The translations under genes were made by a program, and so were the position numbers. A DNA stretch of 64,000 nucleotides from a bacterium (GTDB lineage: Bacteria; Armatimonadota; Zipacnadia; Zipacnadales; Zipacnadaceae): NCBI GenBank assembly GCA_030603495.1, contig JAUVXR010000004.1, positions 62,001 through 126,000 of the forward strand, given 5' to 3'. Positions 1,435-11,723 of the stretch are shown here, one piece after another. The notes beneath the pieces were generated by a model. It had not been told where the DNA came from and did not search any database. It saw only the letters and a list, made by a program, of their open reading frames with translations. Position 1 is the first letter of the stretch; each line of letters starts with the position of its first letter.

Positions 1435-2547
1435 ATGTCAGCGGATGTTTTCTTCAGCCAACCTACAGAACAATCACAAGTTAAGACCGCGATTGTCGAG
1501 AAGTATTTTGAGGCCTGGGCGAGAGTCATGATCAGCCAGGCAAATGACAGGATAGCATACGTAGATTTGTTTGCCGGTCCTGGCTACTATGACAACGGTA
1601 CCCCGTCCACGCCCATTCTGATATTGAGGAAGGCTATCGAAGACGAAGATCTGCGCGAACGACTCGTTGCCGTATTCAACGACAAAGACAGTGATGTGTG
1701 CGATGCGCTGGAAAACGCGATACAACAGTTGCCCGGCATTGAGCAACTTAAGTGTCCCCCGCGGGTGAGAGTTTCTGAGATTGATGACGCAATCGTGGAG
1801 TTTCTCTCGCAAACACCGCTTGTTCCGACGCTTTTCTTCATGGATCCTTTTGGGTACAAGGGGCTGTCACATGTGTTATTTAGCTCAGCATTGAAGGATT
1901 GGGGATCCGAGTGCATCATCTTCTTCAACCTGAATCGAATCCGCATGACTTTGCACAACGAACTGTTCCAAGAGCACATGGACGACCTCTTCGGAGAGGA
2001 GCGTTCTCAGGCTTTGGGCCAGCGGCTCCCGTCTTTGACCATTCAAGCACGAGAGTTGGCTATAGTGGAGGAAATGTGTGCGGCACTAGAGGACGCGGGA
2101 GCTGCTTATGTGCTCCCGTTCCGCTTCAAGGACGAGAGAGGCACGCGCACCAGTCATTACTTGATCCACGCTTCGAAGAACGAACTTGGGTACGAGATTA
2201 TGAAGGAAATAATGGCGGGAGAAAGCTCTCAAACTGACCAAGGCGTGCCATCATTCGAATACAGCCCTGCGGACCGCCGATTCCCACGACTCTTTGAACT
2301 GACCCGCCCCCTGGATGATCTAGAAGACATGCTGCTCGACGAGTTTGCCGAAAGCACTCTCACCATGCTGGAAGTGTACAGAGAACATCACGTCAACAAG
2401 CCTTACATCAAGCGAAACTACAAGCACGTTCTGTACAGGATGGAAACCAATGGGAAGCTATCCTGCAACCCTCCGCACACCGATCGGCGAAACGACACTT
2501 TTGCAGACCATGTCAAAGTGACATTTCCAAATAGGAGGCAAGGCTGA
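1435..2547 (+). CDS. tcmP: Three-Cys-motif partner protein TcmP (Rossmann methyltransferase-like)
   Basis: A 370-residue protein. [13 protein letters not shown] (about residues 40-52) is a class I SAM-methyltransferase motif I, and [11 protein letters not shown] (about 135-144) sits where the DPPY-like catalytic motif is expected. This architecture, and the fact that a DUF5131 three-Cys protein follows one base after the stop, identify the TcmP family, which is named for that pairing. The ATG at 1435 follows AGGAGG at 1420-1425. The substrate is not known to me; nucleic-acid modification is a reasonable inference from the DPFG motif. The C-terminal 100 residues look like a winged-helix tail. 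It lies inside an element ended by a serine recombinase, so it travels as cargo. Confidence is high for the family and low for the function. Confidence 0.75.
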
Positions 2548-2548
2548 T

Positions 2549-3274
2549 ATGGCGGCGCACTCAAAAATAGAGTGGACTGAATCAACCTGGAACCCAGTTA
2601 CAGGCTGTAGCAAGGTGAGTTCAGGCTGTGCTAATTGCTATGCCGAACGCATGGCCCGGAGGCTGCAGGCCATGGGCCAACGCAACTATAGGAATGGCTT
2701 TGAGGTCACGCTCCACGAGCATGCCTTGGAACTGCCGCTGCAGTGGAAAAGACCACAGGTCGTTTTTGTCAACTCCATGAGTGACCTCTTCCACGAACAA
2801 GTTCCGCTCGACTTTGTCAAGCGCGTTTTTGCGGTCATGCGCAAAGCCGATTGGCACGTGTTTCAAGTGCTGACGAAACGGTCACTGCGGCTGGCCGAAT
2901 GTACTTCTGAACTGGAGTGGCCAAGAAATGTTTGGGCAGGCGTGAGCGTGGAAGACCAAGATTGCACGTATCGCATTGACCACCTGAGGCAGACGGACGC
3001 ACTGGTCAAATTCCTCTCTTTTGAGCCACTTATCGGTCCGATTACGGATGTTAACCTGACCTCCATAGACTGGGTGATAGTCGGAGGTGAATCCGGGCCT
3101 GGCGCTAGACCCATGAATGAGCAGTGGGTGCTTGACATTCGACATCGGTGTTCCGCAGCCGGGGTTCCGTTCTTCTTCAAGCAATGGGGCGGGACCAACA
3201 AGAAGCAAGCCGGCCGCACGCTGGAAGGACGTACCTGGGACGAAATGCCGATGGCGTCCGCAATTCAGCAGTAG
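2549..3274 (+). CDS. DUF5131 / phage Gp37-Gp68 family protein with a three-cysteine cluster motif
   Basis: A 241-residue protein. The N-terminus [14 protein letters not shown] is the family signature, followed by Cys20, Cys27 and Cys30 in [20 protein letters not shown]. The C-x6-C-x2-C spacing is like a radical SAM cluster loop but longer than the classical C-x3-C-x2-[35 protein letters not shown] and [14 protein letters not shown] are further hallmarks, and the ending FFFKQWGG is typical. The product is probably an iron-sulfur enzyme of a radical SAM-like barrel fold, acting with TcmP. Start and preceding stop are one base apart, and AGGAGG lies in the end of tcmP, so the two are translationally coupled. 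Family confidence is high; its chemistry is unknown to me. Confidence 0.85.
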
Positions 3275-3445
3275 AATGCCCTGTTGGGTATACCGCTTAT
3301 GCATAGCCCAGCGGCGCCCACGCGCGGGGGGCAAGCTTCGCAAGCCGAAATCGCATTGGCATGAAGCACGGTGGCAGACTCTACGCAAGAATGCTGGAGA
3401 CGTTGATGCTCTGATTATGCTGTAGGTTGGCACAGGAGAATAGCA

Positions 3446-3985
3446 GTGGAGACAACAGAAAAGATCGTTGAGGCTTACGTCCGCTACGTGAATGGGTGGG
3501 CCACCATACCTAACATCAAGTGCCCCGGCCAGTATGAGATCGACCTGTTGGCGGTGGACCTTAGGACAGGGACACGTTACCACATTGAGGTCGGTGTAAG
3601 CGTCTCTGGCGCTTTCAGCAAACTGACCGGCAAGCCCTTCGACGAGGAGTGGTTGAAGCAGCGAGTCAAGCAATCTAGCCAACGACGCACAGTAGGATAC
3701 TTCACGGAGAGGAAGTTCTCCGCTCAGCCGGTCATCGATACCTTGGGGGAGTATGGCTACAAGAACGGTAACTACACACGCGTAATCGTAAGCTGGGGAT
3801 GGACGAATGAGGCAGGGCAACAGGCGAACGACTTCGGCATTCTGCTCTGGGATTTCCGCGACATCATTCGTGACATTGCTGATACCATCGCCAGTACCAC
3901 CAGGTACTTCACAGATGATACCGTGCGGACGCTCCAGTTGTATGCCCGTGCCGCGAAGAAGCCACCGTCGGCCGGCCAGGGATAG
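3446..3985 (+). CDS. Hypothetical protein, possible PD-(D/E)XK nuclease fold
   Basis: A 179-residue protein with a GTG start at 3446 behind ACAGGAG. I do not recognise a named family. The pattern QYEIDLLAVD (residues 29-38) followed about ten residues later by YHIEVGVSV (45-53) resembles the core of restriction-endonuclease-like folds: an acidic residue, a beta turn and a second acidic residue on the next strand. The usual lysine of ExK is replaced by Gly (IEVG), so activity is doubtful. Helices predicted before the motif (TEKIVEAYVRYV) also fit. It lies 171 bases after the DUF5131 gene, between it and the recombinase, and may form a three-gene cargo with the TcmP pair. The nuclease idea is an inference. 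Confidence 0.45.
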   Translation: METTEKIVEAYVRYVNGWATIPNIKCPGQYEIDLLAVDLRTGTRYHIEVGVSVSGAFSKLTGKPFDEEWLKQRVKQSSQRRTVGYFTERKFSAQPVIDTLGEYGYKNGNYTRVIVSWGWTNEAGQQANDFGILLWDFRDIIRDIADTIASTTRYFTDDTVRTLQLYARAAKKPPSAGQG

Positions 3986-4071
3986 ATCCACGAGCCTAAG
4001 GCAACACTCAACAGAGTACCGCATGCCCCGCGTTGGGGAAAAGAGCGTTGGATGAATGAGGTGTTCAGGCT

Positions 4072-5307
4072 ATGACCAATATGACAACTGAGGGAGCACG
4101 CCACGCGGTCGTATATGCCCGCGTCTCCTCGAGACAGCAGGAAGAAGAGGGCTTTTCGATACCGGCCCAGTTGAAGCTGCTCAGGGATTATGCCAGTCAA
4201 TCAGGGCTGGCAGTAAAGCAGGAGTTCGTGGACGTCGAGACCGCCAAGATGACGGGAAGACCGGGCTTTGCGGAGATGGTAGAGTTCCTGACGGACCACG
4301 CCGACCGCTGCAGGATCATTCTGGTGGAGAAGACCGACCGTCTTTACCGTAACCTCCGTGACTATGTCACGTTGGATGAGCTTGACTTGGAGATCCGCTT
4401 CGTCAAGGAGAACTTCGTTCTGTCCGCCGACTCCCGCTCGACGGAAAAGTTCATGCACGGCATCAAGGTCCTGATGGCAAAGAACTATATCGACAATCTC
4501 TCCGAGGAAACGAGCAAGGGCATGCGGGAGAAAGCCGAGCAGGGAACTTGGCCTTCCCGGGCCCCTCTGGGATACCTTAATGTGGATACAAAGGGCAAGC
4601 GACACATTGTCCTGGACCCTGAGATCGCGCCGCTGATTTGCCGACTATTCGAGCTGTATGCGACTGGTGACTACTCGTTGCTGGAAGTGACCCGCCAGAT
4701 CAATGAGGAAGGCCTATGTCATCAGAGAAGCGGGCGTCCAGTTATTAGGAGCGCTATCCATAAGAGCCTTCGCAACCCTATATACTACGGCGACTTCGTT
4801 TGGGACGGGAAACACTACTCGGGAACTCACGACCCCATAGTCTCCAAAGAACTGTGGGACAAGGTTCAGCAGGTTCTACACACCAGGGGTAACCGCCGGA
4901 CTCGACACCAGAAGCACTGGTGGGCTTTCCAGGGGCTTGTGTCGTGTGCGCACTGTGGCTGCGCACTGGTCGCCGAGGAAAAGAAGGGCAAGTACGTCTA
5001 CTATCACTGCACCGGGAATAGGGGGAAGTGTGGTGAACCCTGGGTGCGTGAAGAGGAACTCTCGCGGCAGTTTGGGGAGGTTCTAAGAGACCTACACTTT
5101 GAGCCCGAGATACTGGAATGGGTGCGGGATACCCTCCGCGCCAGCCACGCCGACGAAAAGGAATTCCACGACAAGGTGGTTGCTGATCTGCAGAAGCAAT
5201 ATCAGAAACTACAGGACCGGATTGACGCGATGTACGTTGACAAGCTCGACGGAAGTATCTCGGGTGCCTACTTCGAGGAGAAGAGCGCCGAGTGGCGTAA
5301 AGAATAA
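4072..5307 (+). CDS. Large serine recombinase, truncated by an in-frame TAA
   Basis: The resolvase domain begins AVVYARVSSRQQEEEGFSIP; Ser19 is the expected nucleophile. The arginine-rich EKTDRLYRNLRD helix follows, then the recombinase domain (APLGYLN, then LFELYATGDYSLLEVTRQIN) and a zinc ribbon (CAHCGCAL, then YYHCTGNRGKCG). The coiled coil (LQKQYQKLQDRIDAMYVDKL) runs to a TAA at 5305-5307, giving 411 residues. The family normally continues here with an A/Q-rich helix and a last beta domain, and that continuation is present in the same frame after the stop (next entry). The catalytic domain is intact, but this protein lacks its end, which usually matters for synapsis. The start ATG follows GAGGTG. 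This is the element's integrase. Confidence 0.85.
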   Translation: MTNMTTEGARHAVVYARVSSRQQEEEGFSIPAQLKLLRDYASQSGLAVKQEFVDVETAKMTGRPGFAEMVEFLTDHADRCRIILVEKTDRLYRNLRDYVTLDELDLEIRFVKENFVLSADSRSTEKFMHGIKVLMAKNYIDNLSEETSKGMREKAEQGTWPSRAPLGYLNVDTKGKRHIVLDPEIAPLICRLFELYATGDYSLLEVTRQINEEGLCHQRSGRPVIRSAIHKSLRNPIYYGDFVWDGKHYSGTHDPIVSKELWDKVQQVLHTRGNRRTRHQKHWWAFQGLVSCAHCGCALVAEEKKGKYVYYHCTGNRGKCGEPWVREEELSRQFGEVLRDLHFEPEILEWVRDTLRASHADEKEFHDKVVADLQKQYQKLQDRIDAMYVDKLDGSISGAYFEEKSAEWRKE

Positions 5308-5592: not shown

Positions 5593-5668
5593 TGGTACCC
5601 CCACGGGGAGTCGAACCCCGGCTTCCGGACTGAGAATCCGGCGTCCTTGGCCACTAGACTATGGGGGC
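5593..5668 (-). tRNA. tRNA-Glu (anticodon CTC), CCA encoded
   Basis: Read on the minus strand from 5668: acceptor GCCCCCA pairs with TGGGGGT (one G-T at the first pair), followed by discriminator A and an encoded CCA ending at 5593. The anticodon arm is CCGGA-TTCTCAG-TCCGG, with CTC at positions 34-36, reading GAG. The T arm is CGGGG-TTCGACT-CCCCG. All arms fold without mismatches. The gene abuts the 3' end of the recombinase frame, so its 3' half is the probable attachment site of the element to the left. A consensus promoter lies upstream at 5683-5711. Confidence 0.93.
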
Positions 5669-6871: not shown

Positions 6872-8062
6872 CTAAGCTGGCTCGGAGGCGGCCAGTTGGA
6901 GGATACGTACGCCAAGCTGGTCCTCGACTGCCACGATTTCGCCGAAGGCTACTACCTTATCACCCGCTAGGACCTCCACCCTTTCGTCCAGGCTCTTGTC
7001 CAGCACCACCACCGAGCCGACCCGCAATTCGAGCAATTCGGCCAGTGGCACCGCGACCTCGCCCAGCCTGAGCTGGATGTTGACTGGAATCGCGGACAGC
7101 GACTCTAATCCTGCTCCATCTTCCCCGCAAAGCCGGCTTATCAGCTCCCGCGCAGAACCGTGTGCCTCTAGCTGTTGATCTCGGGTAGTGTCTTCGCTCA
7201 TCGGCGTTTCGGTCTCCTTGAAGATTTCTGTCCGGAGCAGGCGTACGCCAAGCTGCCCGCCCCGTGCGCCAGCGCGTCCGGTGGCCACAACGCAGTCATC
7301 CGCCTGTAAGTGGACCACCATCTCCTCGCCGCGGGGCAGGGGGATAACGTCACCTGGTTCCATTGTGGCGACTTCGACCAAGCTCAGTGATACGCCCGGC
7401 AGGATCGCCGCCAGCTTAACCGGTGCCTGCTGCAATTCCCCCAGGCCAAGCGCCGGTTGCCCCGCGTCCCGGTCGCTCGCTACTCGCACCCGCCAAGCCT
7501 CCGTCGGCGCAGTCATCACAACATTACCTTCTGCTGAACCTATCACGAGTCGGAAAAGTAGGGTAAAGCCCTCTCGGCCCTGGCCCAATTTCCCAGGTGG
7601 CAGCGAGGCCAATAGTTGATGTTCGGCCCGCTTGCGGAACAGCATGCGTACCAGGTTGTCGGCCAGCGCTACGAGGTACAGTCGCAGGACGGCGAGGTCC
7701 ACCTCAGTTAGGGTCTCGCTCGGTGGGGCCAGCTTAGTCGGATATCCCAACAAAGCCACCACGCAGCGAGCGGCCAGTGGCTGGCCCAGCGTTATCACCA
7801 ACCGACCAGCCTCGCCCAACTCGGTCACGAGCGCCGGCCCGCCGACCAGCGGCAACCCCGCCATATCAGACCGCTGCCACACCAACTCAGGCACATCCAC
7901 GCTAGCGCCAGCGCCCAGGTAACTGCGGCTAATGCGACCCAGTGCCTCAGCTAGCGCCGGCAACTCAGCGTGCAGTGCCTCGCGTTCGGCGCTGCTCAGT
8001 TGCCAGACGGGCGGCCACTGCGTGGCTCGGGATGTGGTCTCAGGTGGTAATAGCATCGTCAC
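6872..8062 (-). CDS. FliM-FliN (SctQ-like) C-ring protein with two SpoA domains
   Basis: A 396-residue protein. Residues 30-200 are a weak FliM/CheC-like middle domain. Residues 213-277 (VKLAAILPGVSLSLVEVATM, then PGDVIPL) are a first SpoA domain, and 322-391 (IPVNIQLRLGEVAVPLAELL, then VGSVVVLDKSLDE) a second of FliN type. This is the layout of injectisome SctQ proteins rather than of separate FliM and FliN. The EIDALL CheY-binding motif that starts normal FliM is absent. An internal ATG at 7201 (MSEDTTRDQQ), 12 bases after AAGGAG, could start a separate FliN-sized product of 109 residues, as known for SctQ proteins. It overlaps the end of fliJ by 23 bases and is the last gene of the operon. 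The role would be a cytoplasmic sorting platform or switch ring. Confidence 0.75.
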   Translation of the reverse strand: MTMLLPPETTSRATQWPPVWQLSSAEREALHAELPALAEALGRISRSYLGAGASVDVPELVWQRSDMAGLPLVGGPALVTELGEAGRLVITLGQPLAARCVVALLGYPTKLAPPSETLTEVDLAVLRLYLVALADNLVRMLFRKRAEHQLLASLPPGKLGQGREGFTLLFRLVIGSAEGNVVMTAPTEAWRVRVASDRDAGQPALGLGELQQAPVKLAAILPGVSLSLVEVATMEPGDVIPLPRGEEMVVHLQADDCVVATGRAGARGGQLGVRLLRTEIFKETETPMSEDTTRDQQLEAHGSARELISRLCGEDGAGLESLSAIPVNIQLRLGEVAVPLAELLELRVGSVVVLDKSLDERVEVLAGDKVVAFGEIVAVEDQLGVRILQLAASEPA

Positions 8063-8501
8063 ACACAGTACGGCTAATCAGTTTTGCGCGTACCAGCTCG
8101 TCAATGTGCTTATCCGCGGCTCGGCGGGTTGCCCGCCGGCTTTCCTCGTCCCGGCGAGCTAAGGCCGTCTCCGTGGCTCGGCGCATCTGCGCTGCGCCGA
8201 CTAGTTCTGCCCGCCTGCCGTGCATACGTTCAGCCAGCCCGTGGCGCAGTTGCTCCGTCTTCTCAATATGCCAGCGCAAGGCCTGCGCCGTGCGCTGCCG
8301 GTGCTGGTGCCACTGGATGGTCGCGATCGCGCTGGTGCTCACGCTCTGCCGGAGGACCCGCTCTTGCTGATCCAATGCAGCCAGCCTATTCTCAGCCGCT
8401 GCCATCGCCCGCTGGCATATCGCCACTCGGCGCCCACACAACTGCTCATGCTTGAGCCGGTGAGCAAGCACCCTGCACAACCGGCTGCTGCCGCCTTCCA
8501 T
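8040..8501 (-). CDS. fliJ: FliJ-like export chaperone/stalk protein
   Basis: A 153-residue, almost wholly helical protein, rich in Arg, Ala, Glu and Gln. Two long coiled-coil segments (about residues 10-60 and 85-140) match the FliJ/SctO hairpin that inserts into the FliI hexamer. The ending RRATETALARRDEESRRATR is the typical basic second helix of FliJ. Sequence identity in this family is always low, so the call rests on length, heptads and position: it lies 21 bases after fliI and overlaps the next gene. The ATG at 8501 is preceded by AGGAAGGAAGAG. Several short plus-strand frames over it are shadows. Confidence 0.65.
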   Translation of the reverse strand: MEGGSSRLCRVLAHRLKHEQLCGRRVAICQRAMAAAENRLAALDQQERVLRQSVSTSAIATIQWHQHRQRTAQALRWHIEKTEQLRHGLAERMHGRRAELVGAAQMRRATETALARRDEESRRATRRAADKHIDELVRAKLISRTVCDDAITT

Positions 8502-8522
8502 CTCTTCCTTCCTACAAGTGCG

Positions 8523-9860
8523 CTAACTACTCATCAGCTTGCGGAGCCACTCTCTGGTCTGGTCAACGTCGGCCGACTCATTGGGGCCCTGCTGGAGAAA
8601 TCGGTTCATCTCAGCCCGCAGCGCCACCGCCCGATCCACCTGCGGGTCACTGCCCCGGCTGTATGCGCCCACGTTTATCAAGTCCCGGGCCTCGTTGTAG
8701 GCGGCCAGCAGCGACTTGAACTCCGCTGCGGCCTGAACGTGGTCACGGCTCGCCACATCGTTCATCAGTCGCGACACCGATCCCGTCACATCAATAGCCG
8801 GATAGTGGCCGGATTCAGCTAGCTGCCGGGACAGCACAATGCGCCCGTCGAGTATCGCGCTGACAGCGTCAGCCACTGGGTCGTGGAGGTCATCACGCTC
8901 GACCAGCACAGTATAGAGCGCGGTTATAGTGCCTTCGCCGGTAGCGCCGGCCCGCTCCAATAGGGACGGGAGCATCGTGTACAGCGACGGAGGGTAGCCT
9001 CCCGTGGTCGGCATCTCCCCAGCCGCCAGGCCCACCTCACGCTGGGCCTGGGCCAGCCGGGTCAGGGAATCCATGAGCAACAGGACATTGGCCCCGCTGT
9101 CCCGGAAATACTCGGCGATCGCAGTCGCCGCCATGCCCGTCTGGAGCCGAAGCAAGGGCGGCTGGTCGGAGGTAGTCACTACCACCACGGAGTTGCTCAG
9201 ACCCTCGCCGAGGTCCCTCTGGAGGAAGTCGAGCACCTCGCGACCGCGTTCGCCGACCAGGGCGATGACGTTCACATCCGCCGTAGTATGCTGGGCAATC
9301 ATCCCCAGCAGCACGCTCTTGCCGACTCCTGCCCCCGAGAAGATGCCCAGGCGCTGTCCTTGGCAGCAGGTCAGCAGACCATCAATGGCCCGCACGCCCG
9401 TCCACAGTGGCGCGGCGACGCGGCGGCGCTTCAGCGGAAGGGGCGGGGCGGCTTGCACGGGGCGGTAAGTCTGCACGGAGACCGGGCCTTTTTCGTCCAG
9501 GGGACGACCAAAGCAATCTACTACCCGGCCCAGCAGCTGCGGCCCGACGCCGATCTGGAGAGGTTGGCCGGTGGCGAGAACCTGACAGCCGGGCTCCACG
9601 CCCTGGAGCGGACCAAGGGTGAGTAGGACAGTGTGCTTATCGCGGAAGGCGACCACCTGCGCATGGATAGAGCCACTGCTGCCGCTGGGCTGCAGGATGC
9701 ATAGCTCCCCGATCTGCGCCGGTGGGCCTTGGGCGACGATGGTTAGGCCGGATACCTCTACCACCCGGCCCATGCGCTGGAAGCGCCCGGCTACCTTCGT
9801 CCGCTCGACGAGGTCGTCCAACTGCCGCACATACTCAGCGATGACGGATTGAGTCGTCAC
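8523..9860 (-). CDS. fliI: Type III export ATPase FliI
   Basis: A 445-residue F1-like ATPase, normal length for FliI. Walker A is SGAGVGKS (residues 175-182). The GERGREVLDF motif and the Walker B segment NVLLLMDSLTRLAQAQREVG follow. PTTGGYPPSLYTMLPSLLER and YPAIDVTGSVSRLM are family hallmarks that separate FliI/SctN from F-type beta subunits. The N-terminal beta barrel domain (residues 25-100) is present. It would energise unfolding of substrates at a type III export gate. It follows fliH by 22 bases. All catalytic motifs look intact, so the enzyme is probably active even though no gate genes (flhA, flhB, fliPQR) are near. Confidence 0.93.
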   Translation of the reverse strand: MTTQSVIAEYVRQLDDLVERTKVAGRFQRMGRVVEVSGLTIVAQGPPAQIGELCILQPSGSSGSIHAQVVAFRDKHTVLLTLGPLQGVEPGCQVLATGQPLQIGVGPQLLGRVVDCFGRPLDEKGPVSVQTYRPVQAAPPLPLKRRRVAAPLWTGVRAIDGLLTCCQGQRLGIFSGAGVGKSVLLGMIAQHTTADVNVIALVGERGREVLDFLQRDLGEGLSNSVVVVTTSDQPPLLRLQTGMAATAIAEYFRDSGANVLLLMDSLTRLAQAQREVGLAAGEMPTTGGYPPSLYTMLPSLLERAGATGEGTITALYTVLVERDDLHDPVADAVSAILDGRIVLSRQLAESGHYPAIDVTGSVSRLMNDVASRDHVQAAAEFKSLLAAYNEARDLINVGAYSRGSDPQVDRAVALRAEMNRFLQQGPNESADVDQTREWLRKLMSS

Positions 9861-9882
9861 CTCTGCCCCCCTGACAGCGCAG

Positions 9883-10496
9883 CTACTGTTCGATAGATGT
9901 CAGCAGCGTTGTTTGAATGCGGCCGAACTGGGTGGGGATATTAGCGTCAAGGATCCCGTGGTCGCTTTCCACCACACACCCACCCCGCTCCACCCCCCGG
10001 TCGGCTATCACCCGCAGATGGGAAAATCGCCCCAGAACTGTGTCATCGGTCGCCAGAGCTTGTTCTACCAGCGGTCTGTCATCAGGATGAACCCGCACCT
10101 GTAGCTCGCCCTCGCAGGCCACCTCATCCAGAGCAGCCTTGACAGTACGCTCCACGACCCGCCGGTCCTGGCGTATCTCGGCAGCCACAATGCGGCGGGC
10201 AATGCTGATCGCCAGGCGAACGACGTGTGGGCGCAACTCGTCAAGCAGCCGCTCTCTGTCGCGGGCGAGCTGAGTGGTTAAGTCATGCAGCAAGTGGCGG
10301 ATACGCGCCATCCGTTGAAGTTCAGTATCCGGCTGATCCGGCCCGCCGGAACTCGGCCTGAGCCCCGCCCCTTCCCGCACCAGTGTGGCCCCCCCCCCTG
10401 CGCAAAGCTGCTTTCCAGCCGTACAGGCCGTACCCACAGTCCGGCGTGGGTAATATCTGTCTTCTTGACCAGGTGGTTCGCCATATTAATCACCAT
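9883..10496 (-). CDS. fliH: FliH-like ATPase regulator, split by a frameshift at a G10 run
   Basis: The N-terminus lies in one frame (from the ATG at 10496 or 10484: MANHLVKKTDITHAGLWVRP, then VRLESSFAQGGG) and the rest in another (ATLVREGAG, then LARDRERLLDELRPHVVRLA, then ISIARRIVAAEIRQDRRVVE). The frames meet at ten C on the plus strand (10389-10398); an eleventh would join them into about 204 residues. The second part has the FliH/SctL pattern: a helical stalk, then LQVRVHPDDRPLVEQAL and a C-terminal V1-E-like domain. The first start overlaps the stop of the fliF-like gene (ATGGTGATTAA), which supports the N-terminal frame. A GTG at 10437 can start a shorter protein in the second frame. 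Assembly error, real mutation or slippage are all possible. Confidence 0.7.
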
Positions 10497-11520
10497 CCGA
10501 GCCAGTATTGAATACGGCTGCGGTCGGTTCAGGGCACGGGTTGTTTTCGCTCGCCGTGCGCTTCAGCTGCAAGGCATCTGCTAATGAGCGCAACGTCTCA
10601 TCACGAGCTGGGTGGGTCGCTGTCGGCAGTGAGCTCGCGTCGATATCTAGCACGCTGCGGCCCTGTCGTGTGATCTCTTCGTCCGGCATGTTTTGCAGGG
10701 CCACTGCCACCACTTCGGGGCGTTCTCCGCCCACCAACGCTGTAACCTCGTCCGGCGACAGCTCTGCCAGGAAATGAAGCGGATTTGGCCGCTCGACCGA
10801 AGCCGAGCTTATCTCAGTTGGAGGCGCTTCGACTTGGCGCTCGTACTGCGTTCGCCACCGCAGCACTAGGTATGCCGCCATGGCCAGCACAACACAGACG
10901 GCGGTCAGTCCCAGCGCGGCTTTCCACGGATCAGATAATATTGCGGCGGTCGGGGCCGCACCCGCGGAGACGAGGGCAGGCTCCAATAGTCTTGCTGCCG
11001 CCGGGGTCGGCTGACCTTGAGAAAACAGCAGGGCGCCACTGCTGTCAGTGATGAGCAGGTCCGTCCGCTGCAGCCCCTGGACAGTGTGGAGCACCAAGGC
11101 AGTCAGACTGTCGAGCCAGCTGTCAGGGCGTGGGCTGGTGGCCTCAAGATGCAAGGAGAGCGCCAGGCGAGGCGAATCAGCAGACTTAGCTTCCAGCAAA
11201 GGGGTTGCAAAGATGGCGTCGGCGGAAGCAACGTAGTCATAGCCGGCCAGCATACTTTCCAGACGCTGGGCAATTTCGGCCTGCTCGCGCCGTCGGGTGC
11301 CCGGTAGAGGCAGAGAGAGGATGCTCGTGGCAGAAGCACGCGCAGCAGGTAGATCACTGCCGTCCGGGACGGCAGACCACTGCGCAGCGGGCACAGAATA
11401 TGCCTGATAGGTCGCCGCACCCAGTGCGGCGACTACCGCTGCCAGCACGGTAAGAGATAGAACTCTGGCCGCCGCTCTAAGCGACTGCCACCACTGAAGA
11501 ATCTCGCGAAGCGCCTCCAT
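10486..11520 (-). CDS. Reduced FliF MS-ring-like protein with a FliG-like tail
   Basis: A 344-residue protein; FliF is usually 500-570. One membrane helix lies at about residues 18-40 and a second at 201-222. Between them, EIAQRLESMLAGYDYVASAD and LTALVLHTVQGLQRTDLLIT, then DSSGALLFSQGQ, match the third ring-building domain of FliF; the first two domains are missing. After the second helix, residues 247-282 (NPLHFLAELSPDEVTALVGG, then ERPEVVAVALQNMPDEE) match the middle domain of FliG. So it is a two-helix ring protein carrying a short piece of FliG, without the charged torque helix. It is the first gene of the operon, about 150 bases from a consensus promoter. The assignment of separate parts is by motif and needs a profile search. 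Confidence 0.65.
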   Translation of the reverse strand: MEALREILQWWQSLRAAARVLSLTVLAAVVAALGAATYQAYSVPAAQWSAVPDGSDLPAARASATSILSLPLPGTRRREQAEIAQRLESMLAGYDYVASADAIFATPLLEAKSADSPRLALSLHLEATSPRPDSWLDSLTALVLHTVQGLQRTDLLITDSSGALLFSQGQPTPAAARLLEPALVSAGAAPTAAILSDPWKAALGLTAVCVVLAMAAYLVLRWRTQYERQVEAPPTEISSASVERPNPLHFLAELSPDEVTALVGGERPEVVAVALQNMPDEEITRQGRSVLDIDASSLPTATHPARDETLRSLADALQLKRTASENNPCPEPTAAVFNTGSDGD

Positions 11521-11699: not shown

Positions 11700-11723
11700 T
11701 ACCTTTTCCAGCGGTTATCAACA

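Follow-up and report, generated by a model that had tools for sequence, protein, structure and literature searches.

A probable separate type III export machine, neither flagellum nor injectisome, in one class of Armatimonadota

Introduction

Flagella and injectisomes are the two main forms of type III export machine known, beside a little-studied form in the Myxococcales. In the passages of Abby and Rocha (2012, PMC3459982) used here, this Myxococcales non-flagellar type III secretion system (NF-T3SS) is interpreted as a translocation or periplasmic device. Basal-body and export genes without a filament are also described, in the cited parts of two further papers, for the export-only flagella of Buchnera (PMC8109811) and the relic flagellar genes of non-flagellated Lysobacter (PMC9927559). 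A paper on metagenome-assembled genomes of Armatimonadota mentions type III genes, in the parts drawn on here, only as part of flagella (PMC10290634). We analysed a 64,000-nucleotide stretch of one Armatimonadota genome (GCA_030603495.1, contig JAUVXR010000004.1, positions 62,001 to 126,000; hereafter the window), in which five genes at 6872-11520 on the minus strand form the operon fliF-fliH-fliI-fliJ-fliMN. This operon probably encodes the ATPase, the sorting platform and the ring of a complete type III export machine in its own right, distinct from flagella and injectisomes alike. No description of such a machine was found in the literature that we searched.

The ring, platform and ATPase operon

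The five genes, all on the minus strand, are tightly packed and some of them overlap, as the first-pass annotation of the window had claimed; this packing suggests that they share one promoter. Profile searches with the five proteins gave clear matches for FliH, FliI, FliJ and the protein with two SpoA domains (FliMN), and the FliF-like protein is weak by itself and stronger in its orthologues. The fliI gene (8523-9860) is intact and encodes a full-length type III-type ATPase of 445 amino acids (aa), scoring 562 bits on TIGR01026 (cut-off 380). Its closest equivalog models are FliI clade 2 (565 bits) and SctN (554 bits), and both scores are under the models' own equivalog cut-offs. FliH (9883-10484, main frame 9883-10437) matches PF02108 with an E-value of 4.7e-24. 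FliJ, the ATPase stalk (8040-8501), is slightly under the Pfam cut-off and matches TIGR02473 with an E-value of 1.4e-9. The fliMN gene (6872-8062, starting with GTG at 8062 or ATG at 8056) matches PF01052 in two stretches (E 7e-32), namely a first, FliM C-terminal-like SpoA domain (7229-7444) and a second, FliN-like one (6893-7102). Its AlphaFold2 model, compared by Foldseek, has a FliM/CheC-type domain with the FliM middle-domain fold and two SpoA domains, and the best structural matches are FliM(SpoA)::FliN fusions (4yxb), C-ring FliM and FliM middle domains. The FliM and FliN SpoA genes are fused only in the window's own genus (g1); genus g3, from the same family, has two genes, as do other genera and families.

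The fliF gene (10486-11520) encodes a protein of only 344 aa, which we call mini-FliF. By itself it matches the YscJ_FliF profile weakly (E 0.05), and two orthologues reach 1e-6 and 2e-9. An AlphaFold model built with 16 orthologues (mean pLDDT 74, ring domain mostly 72-94) consists of a first transmembrane (TM) segment, a single ring domain (aa 76-167, 11020-11295), a second TM segment and a helical cytoplasmic tail. The top Foldseek match is RBM2 of FliF from the flagellar MS ring, with SctJ-type proteins ranking lower; the match of the ring domain to 6sd2 has a TM-score of 0.79 on the target and 22% identity. RBM1 and RBM3 are missing, unlike in a flagellum-type FliF, which has RBM1-RBM3 and about 520-600 aa. 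Full-length mini-FliF is restricted to one class among the 291 genomes of the phylum that were searched; outside this class the mini-FliF profile matches only the RBM2 part of ordinary FliF proteins, mostly of 520-600 aa.

Part of the tail (aa 247-290, 10651-10782) resembles the middle domain of FliG. In a genome search with PF14841 (cut-off 25), the orthologue from genome G041 scores 24.8 bits alone and 25.5 bits together with its neighbours; in hmmscan it scores 22.8 bits. The mini-FliF profile also matches a FliG-size open reading frame (ORF) of 358 aa in G278 through the tail alone (E 8e-12). No separate or hidden FliG was recognised by PF14841 in the search of the window's own genome. The first-pass annotation had read the protein as FliF-like with a FliG-like tail, and the RBM2 model match and the two tail matches bear this out; the FliG-like tail is real. 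Every carrier of the system examined has a mini-FliF with RBM2 only and the FliG-like tail.

A sigma-70-type promoter, TTGACA-N17-TATAAA with TG preceding the -10 element, was found by exact pattern at 11699-11671 on the minus strand. This is the plain, housekeeping-type promoter that had been proposed, and six genomes of the genus share it: besides the window's genome, G001, G003, G004, G005 and G006 have a matching site 135-181 nt upstream of fliF. A generic promoter scanner did not find the site, as it accepts only a -10 element ending in T; the scanner's own call at 11721 was dropped, the site at 11699-11671 being better and conserved. Within fliH, the ATG at 10484 and a homologous N-terminus are in one frame and the body of the protein is in another, and the two frames meet at a run of ten G (10389-10398, minus strand). 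Frame comparison shows that the run is missing from five relatives. It is possibly a phase-variable tract or an assembly error.

The export gate lies elsewhere in the genome

We searched the whole genome carrying the window (2.67 Mb, 93.5% complete) for the other parts of a type III machine. PF00813 found FliP (226 bits) on contig C21, within a fliO-fliP-fliQ-fliR-flhB array that is followed by two tRNAs, and PF00771 found FlhA on contig C56, adjoining a gene for a FliA/WhiG-type sigma factor. Thus, the first-pass statement that no flagellin, hook, rod, FlhA, FlhB or FliPQR gene is beside the operon holds locally, and the gate genes are present on these two other contigs. The export apparatus set is present and intact (FliP, FliQ, FliR, FlhA, the TM part of FlhB, FliI and FliH), except for the frame of fliH at the G run. 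Flagellin (PF00669) gave no match in this genome, one of about 14 carriers of the system that lack it. Rod, hook and hook-associated proteins (PF00460) gave no match in the same genome or in G002-G006, G008, G011, G013, G016, G026 and G032, although very divergent mini forms could escape this profile. With no flagellin, rod/hook or FliG match, a complete flagellar gene set that would include the operon as its ordinary part was not found.

FlhA, FlhB, FliQ, FliR and the FliF-like protein score far off the normal flagellar profiles, and FliP alone passes (236 bits, cut-off 217). The FlhA of the system (hereafter FlhA2) reaches 354 bits against a flagellar cut-off of 772 and 279 bits on TIGR01399 against a cut-off of 692. 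FlhA2 of the window's genome has a basic R195 and an acidic E200, which we take to correspond to K203 and D208 of Salmonella FlhA. The FlhB of the system (FlhB2) is truncated. In all carriers its match to PF01312 ends near positions 225-247 of 335 (239 in the window's genome), at the linker before the self-cleaving domain, whereas the flagellar FlhB in the same genomes spans all 335 positions. A stand-alone FlhB C-terminal domain was not found in the window's genome. The flhB gene overlaps flhA in stretch L054. Only G044, G045 and G055, flagellated members of the phylum in which the export system was not found, have the cytoplasmic domain of FlhB as a stand-alone protein (about 107-112 aa, covering positions 256-335 of PF01312).

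One could read these genes as part of an NF-T3SS of the injectisome type, used for the injection or secretion of effectors, whose needle and secretin genes have diverged beyond recognition or lie too far away to be noticed. The core gene content does overlap, FliMN scores 83 bits on the SctQ model (cut-off 101), and the Myxococcales NF-T3SS, as described in the cited passages, likewise has no secretin, needle or FliG (PMC3459982). However, FliO is present, FliP is below the SctR cut-off (153 against 209 bits) while passing that of FliP, FlhB2 is without the autocleaving domain found in SctU, no SctD was recognised within the clusters, and FlhA2 stands apart from SctV in the phylogeny given below. 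We regard this reading as improbable.

A somewhat better, though still unlikely, alternative is an export-gate device, such as a periplasmic exporter or the core of a nanotube or 'hat'-like structure, in which FliPQR-FlhB-FlhA act without any external structure. The gene set is near to a core complex with an ATPase and a minimal ring, and a published study connects core proteins of the flagellar type III secretion system with nanotubes and with a hat-shaped structure of the inner membrane (PMC9380563); it gives no gene set that matches ours. Against this, the ATPase, FliJ, FliH and the SpoA platform are all kept, which argues for active substrate delivery. The roles of flagellar core proteins in nanotubes are, moreover, disputed.

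Distribution, phylogeny and selection

In families f3, f5, f7 and f8 of the same class, the operon genes and the gate genes are contiguous, all in one cluster with the order fliF, fliH, fliI, fliJ, fliM, fliN, fliO, fliP, fliQ, fliR, flhB, flhA and sigma (stretches L052, L054, L055, L057, L098, L099, L102, L105, L114 and L115), with fliJ assigned mostly by position. The cluster is split in family f1, and in genus g1 it occupies three loci. The full set consists of mini-FliF, FliH, FliI, FliJ, FliM/FliN, FliO, FliP, FliQ and FliR, together with a divergent FlhA, an FlhB without its cytoplasmic domain and a sigma factor of the FliA/WhiG type.

With fragmentary matches from incomplete genomes counted, about 15 genomes have the system together with flagellin and/or rod genes, and about 14, the window's own included, have it without them. 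About half of the carriers have an additional flagellar set with a second, ordinary FlhA and FlhB. Genome G001, a flagellated sister of the same genus, holds both sets, and its FlhA2 is 73% identical to that of the window's genome. A second flagellum-type system still serving motility in the flagellated species, for example an alternative basal body sharing rod and filament proteins, might be considered, as the sigma factor of the cluster is of the FliA/WhiG type and many carriers are flagellated. However, the carriers without a flagellin or rod/hook match indicate that the system is independent of these proteins, and mini-FliF lacks RBM3, which in flagellar FliF is the domain housing the rod base. 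A role in motility is therefore very unlikely.

Within the class, the FlhA matches separate into two types. FlhA2 forms one clade, with support of 99 in the Shimodaira-Hasegawa-like approximate likelihood ratio test on 95 rows and 100 on 46 rows under a mixture model. In this tree, for which no root was inferred and which contains long branches, the FlhA2 clade is apart from the class's flagellar FlhA (support 100) and from the SctV of three rhizobial plasmids, our injectisome yardstick. The class's flagellar FlhA forms a second, separate clade, and both clades extend across the class. Inside FlhA2, family f8 branches first, followed by f7 and then f3, f5 and f1, an order compatible with vertical descent. 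The flagellar FlhA of G056, from the same phylum, is sister to that of Fimbriimonadales SKW193 (support 100); in our analysis the phylum was placed by this tree. In a scan of named genomes with the FlhA2 alignment, the strongest motifs were universal to FlhA, and among the matches listed there were only ordinary FlhAs. Six species pairs, flagellum-less pairs among them, were compared for the ratio of nonsynonymous to synonymous substitution (dN/dS, NG86), which was well below 1, at 0.08-0.61, for every cluster gene measured. The system is under purifying selection, also in species without a flagellum, and is old within the class and independent of the flagellum.

These results bear directly on the suggestion in the first-pass annotation that the operon may be a shrunken flagellar remnant, the last genes left after loss of the flagellum, now decaying or kept by chance. 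In its favour, flagellin, rod/hook and FliG_M gave no match in the window's genome, which has a flagellated sister (G001) and retains flgM and a FliT/FlgN-like chaperone gene (see below), and the frame of fliH is broken at the G run. But G001 and about 14 other genomes have the system beside a separate flagellar set with its own FlhA and FlhB, the two FlhA clades are each class-wide, the promoter is conserved, and species without a flagellum also show low dN/dS. The remnant explanation is largely refuted, and we give it hardly any weight.

A possible retained sigma-28/FlgM circuit

We searched the genome for the perfect sigma-28 pattern TAAA-N(14-16)-GCCGATAA and found two sites; the reversed control gave none. 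One lies 87 nt before a flgM-like gene (PF04316, E 2e-10) on contig C10. The other precedes genes for a small lipoprotein and a YjbH-family outer-membrane barrel on contig C44 (L217:3947-7088), a family linked to exopolysaccharide; the two genes are candidate members of a sigma-28 regulon. A near-perfect site (L216:2388) is found before a gene for a 132-aa protein that resembles the ends of FliD (FliD_N, E 0.01), the second half of which matches ORFs of roughly 760 aa in flagellated relatives. A FliT/FlgN-like chaperone gene comes after this mini-FliD-like gene. The flgM, mini-FliD-like and chaperone genes (L216:930-3380, contig C10) adjoin an rpoN-like gene, in a genome without a flagellin match.

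The flagellum-less genomes G002, G003, G005 and G006 have flgM, the chaperone gene and a sigma-28 site preceding flgM in one locus, with dN/dS of 0.1-0.5 (the flgM of G002b being left out). In these species an ORF of 75-110 aa lies between the sigma-28 site and flgM (L248, L249, L250, L251, L252 and L254). It has a strong GGGGGG ribosome site and a conserved position, and its sequence diverges fast. This ORF is possibly a substrate or a decayed gene. By eye, only the G005 version is like a rod protein N-terminus, and we make no claim that it is a rod protein. Taken together, these loci are only suggestive of a retained sigma-28/FlgM circuit tied to the export system.

A model for the machine

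From the known roles of these families, FliPQR and the TM part of FlhB would form the membrane gate with an FlhA ring below it, and FliH-FliI-FliJ would deliver substrates. The RBM2 ring of mini-FliF would surround the gate, and its FliG-like tail would hold the FliM/FliN platform. A switch between early and late substrates is probably missing, since FlhB lacks its self-cleaving part and the searches gave no rod or hook gene. For the same reasons, the machine probably exports one small class of substrates across the inner membrane, and an outer-membrane step would be either absent or performed by another protein. More speculatively, export of the retained FlgM may free the sigma factor of the system, such that secretion would turn on a small sigma-28 regulon comprising flgM, the mini-FliD-like protein with its FliT/FlgN-type chaperone, the lipoprotein and the YjbH-type outer-membrane barrel.

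Several observations weigh against this model. No substrate, secretin, needle or other extracellular part was recognised, secretin and needle having been looked for within the clusters rather than genome-wide. FlhB2, FlhA2 and mini-FliF evolve fast, and the deep placement of FlhA2 may result partly from long branches. The ten-G run breaks fliH in the window sequence as assembled. Loss of a flagellum could have left FlgM and the chaperone behind: a related flgM lies beside flgK-flgL genes in G001, the flagellated sister, and G009 and G012, two genomes with neither system, carry a similar chaperone gene. FlgM-like proteins are also common in the phylum, which speaks against a tight link of FlgM to the system.

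With these points included, we still consider a separate and complete export machine probable. The first-pass annotation had offered a new type III-like machine as its other possibility, and this idea is supported; its five-gene scope was too narrow, since FliO, FliP, FliQ, FliR, FlhB, FlhA and the sigma factor are encoded at two other loci. A more specific proposal, which we hold tentatively and at somewhat less than even confidence, is that the system, old in one Armatimonadota class, is a type III machine of a third kind. Such a machine would combine a switch-less gate, a one-domain ring fused to a piece of FliG and its own secretion-coupled sigma-28/FlgM circuit, and would send a small class of proteins to the periplasm or surface without a rod, hook, needle or secretin. 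If true, this separate and apparently vertically inherited form, with neither the FlhB switch domain nor recognised rod, hook or needle genes, would provide a view of the export core by itself. It would also bear directly on the origin of injectisomes from flagella through a secreting intermediate, and would offer a natural way to test if export as such requires FlhB autocleavage.

Neighbouring genes

Elsewhere in the window, the region 1435-5307 looks like an integrated mobile element. Named by eye, its genes include an ORF for a TcmP-like three-Cys partner (1435-2547), a Gp37/DUF5131-like ORF (2549-3274), an unknown ORF and a large serine recombinase ORF (4072-5307), with a tRNA-Glu (about 5593-5668) nearby. 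Family f3 has a lipoprotein-like gene between fliP and fliQ on the opposite strand, and its position is kept in six stretches (for example, L057:14578-15411, L114:11190-12035, L115:9744-10709 and L111:4491-5327). Conserved flanking genes were considered as substrates and rejected: the neighbours are by eye mostly housekeeping genes (pgi, folC, mazG and a SurA-like gene) and vary between families.

Comparison with known systems

The system shares with the bacterial flagellum its gene families, a similar gene order, FliO, a FliP above the flagellar cut-off, the FliM middle-domain fold, a FliA/WhiG-type sigma gene in the cluster and sigma-28 sites before flgM. It differs in that the window's genome has no flagellin, rod/hook or FliG match, FliF is cut to RBM2 with a fused FliG-like tail, FlhB has no cytoplasmic domain and FlhA forms its own clade. 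With the NF-T3SS or injectisome (SctJ, L, N, O, Q, R, S, T, U and V), the export core is alike, the ring domain is related to the second domain of SctJ and, in genus g1 only, two SpoA domains are found in one protein as in SctQ. Unlike in the injectisome, FlhA2 does not group with SctV, FliO is present and the SctU-type autocleaving domain is missing; no SctD, needle or secretin was recognised in the clusters, to which the search for needle and secretin was confined.

The Myxococcales ('Myxo') NF-T3SS, set beside our system by description only, is the nearest described idea. According to the passages used here, it too has a type III core without a secretin, needle, FliG or flagellum-specific genes (PMC3459982). 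It belongs to another phylum, and those passages do not mention a truncated FlhB, FliO or a sigma factor of its own. The cases of Buchnera and Lysobacter, as presented in the cited parts of their papers (PMC8109811, PMC9927559), are reductions of a flagellum, whereas the system described here is a second one, found in relatives beside an intact flagellar set.

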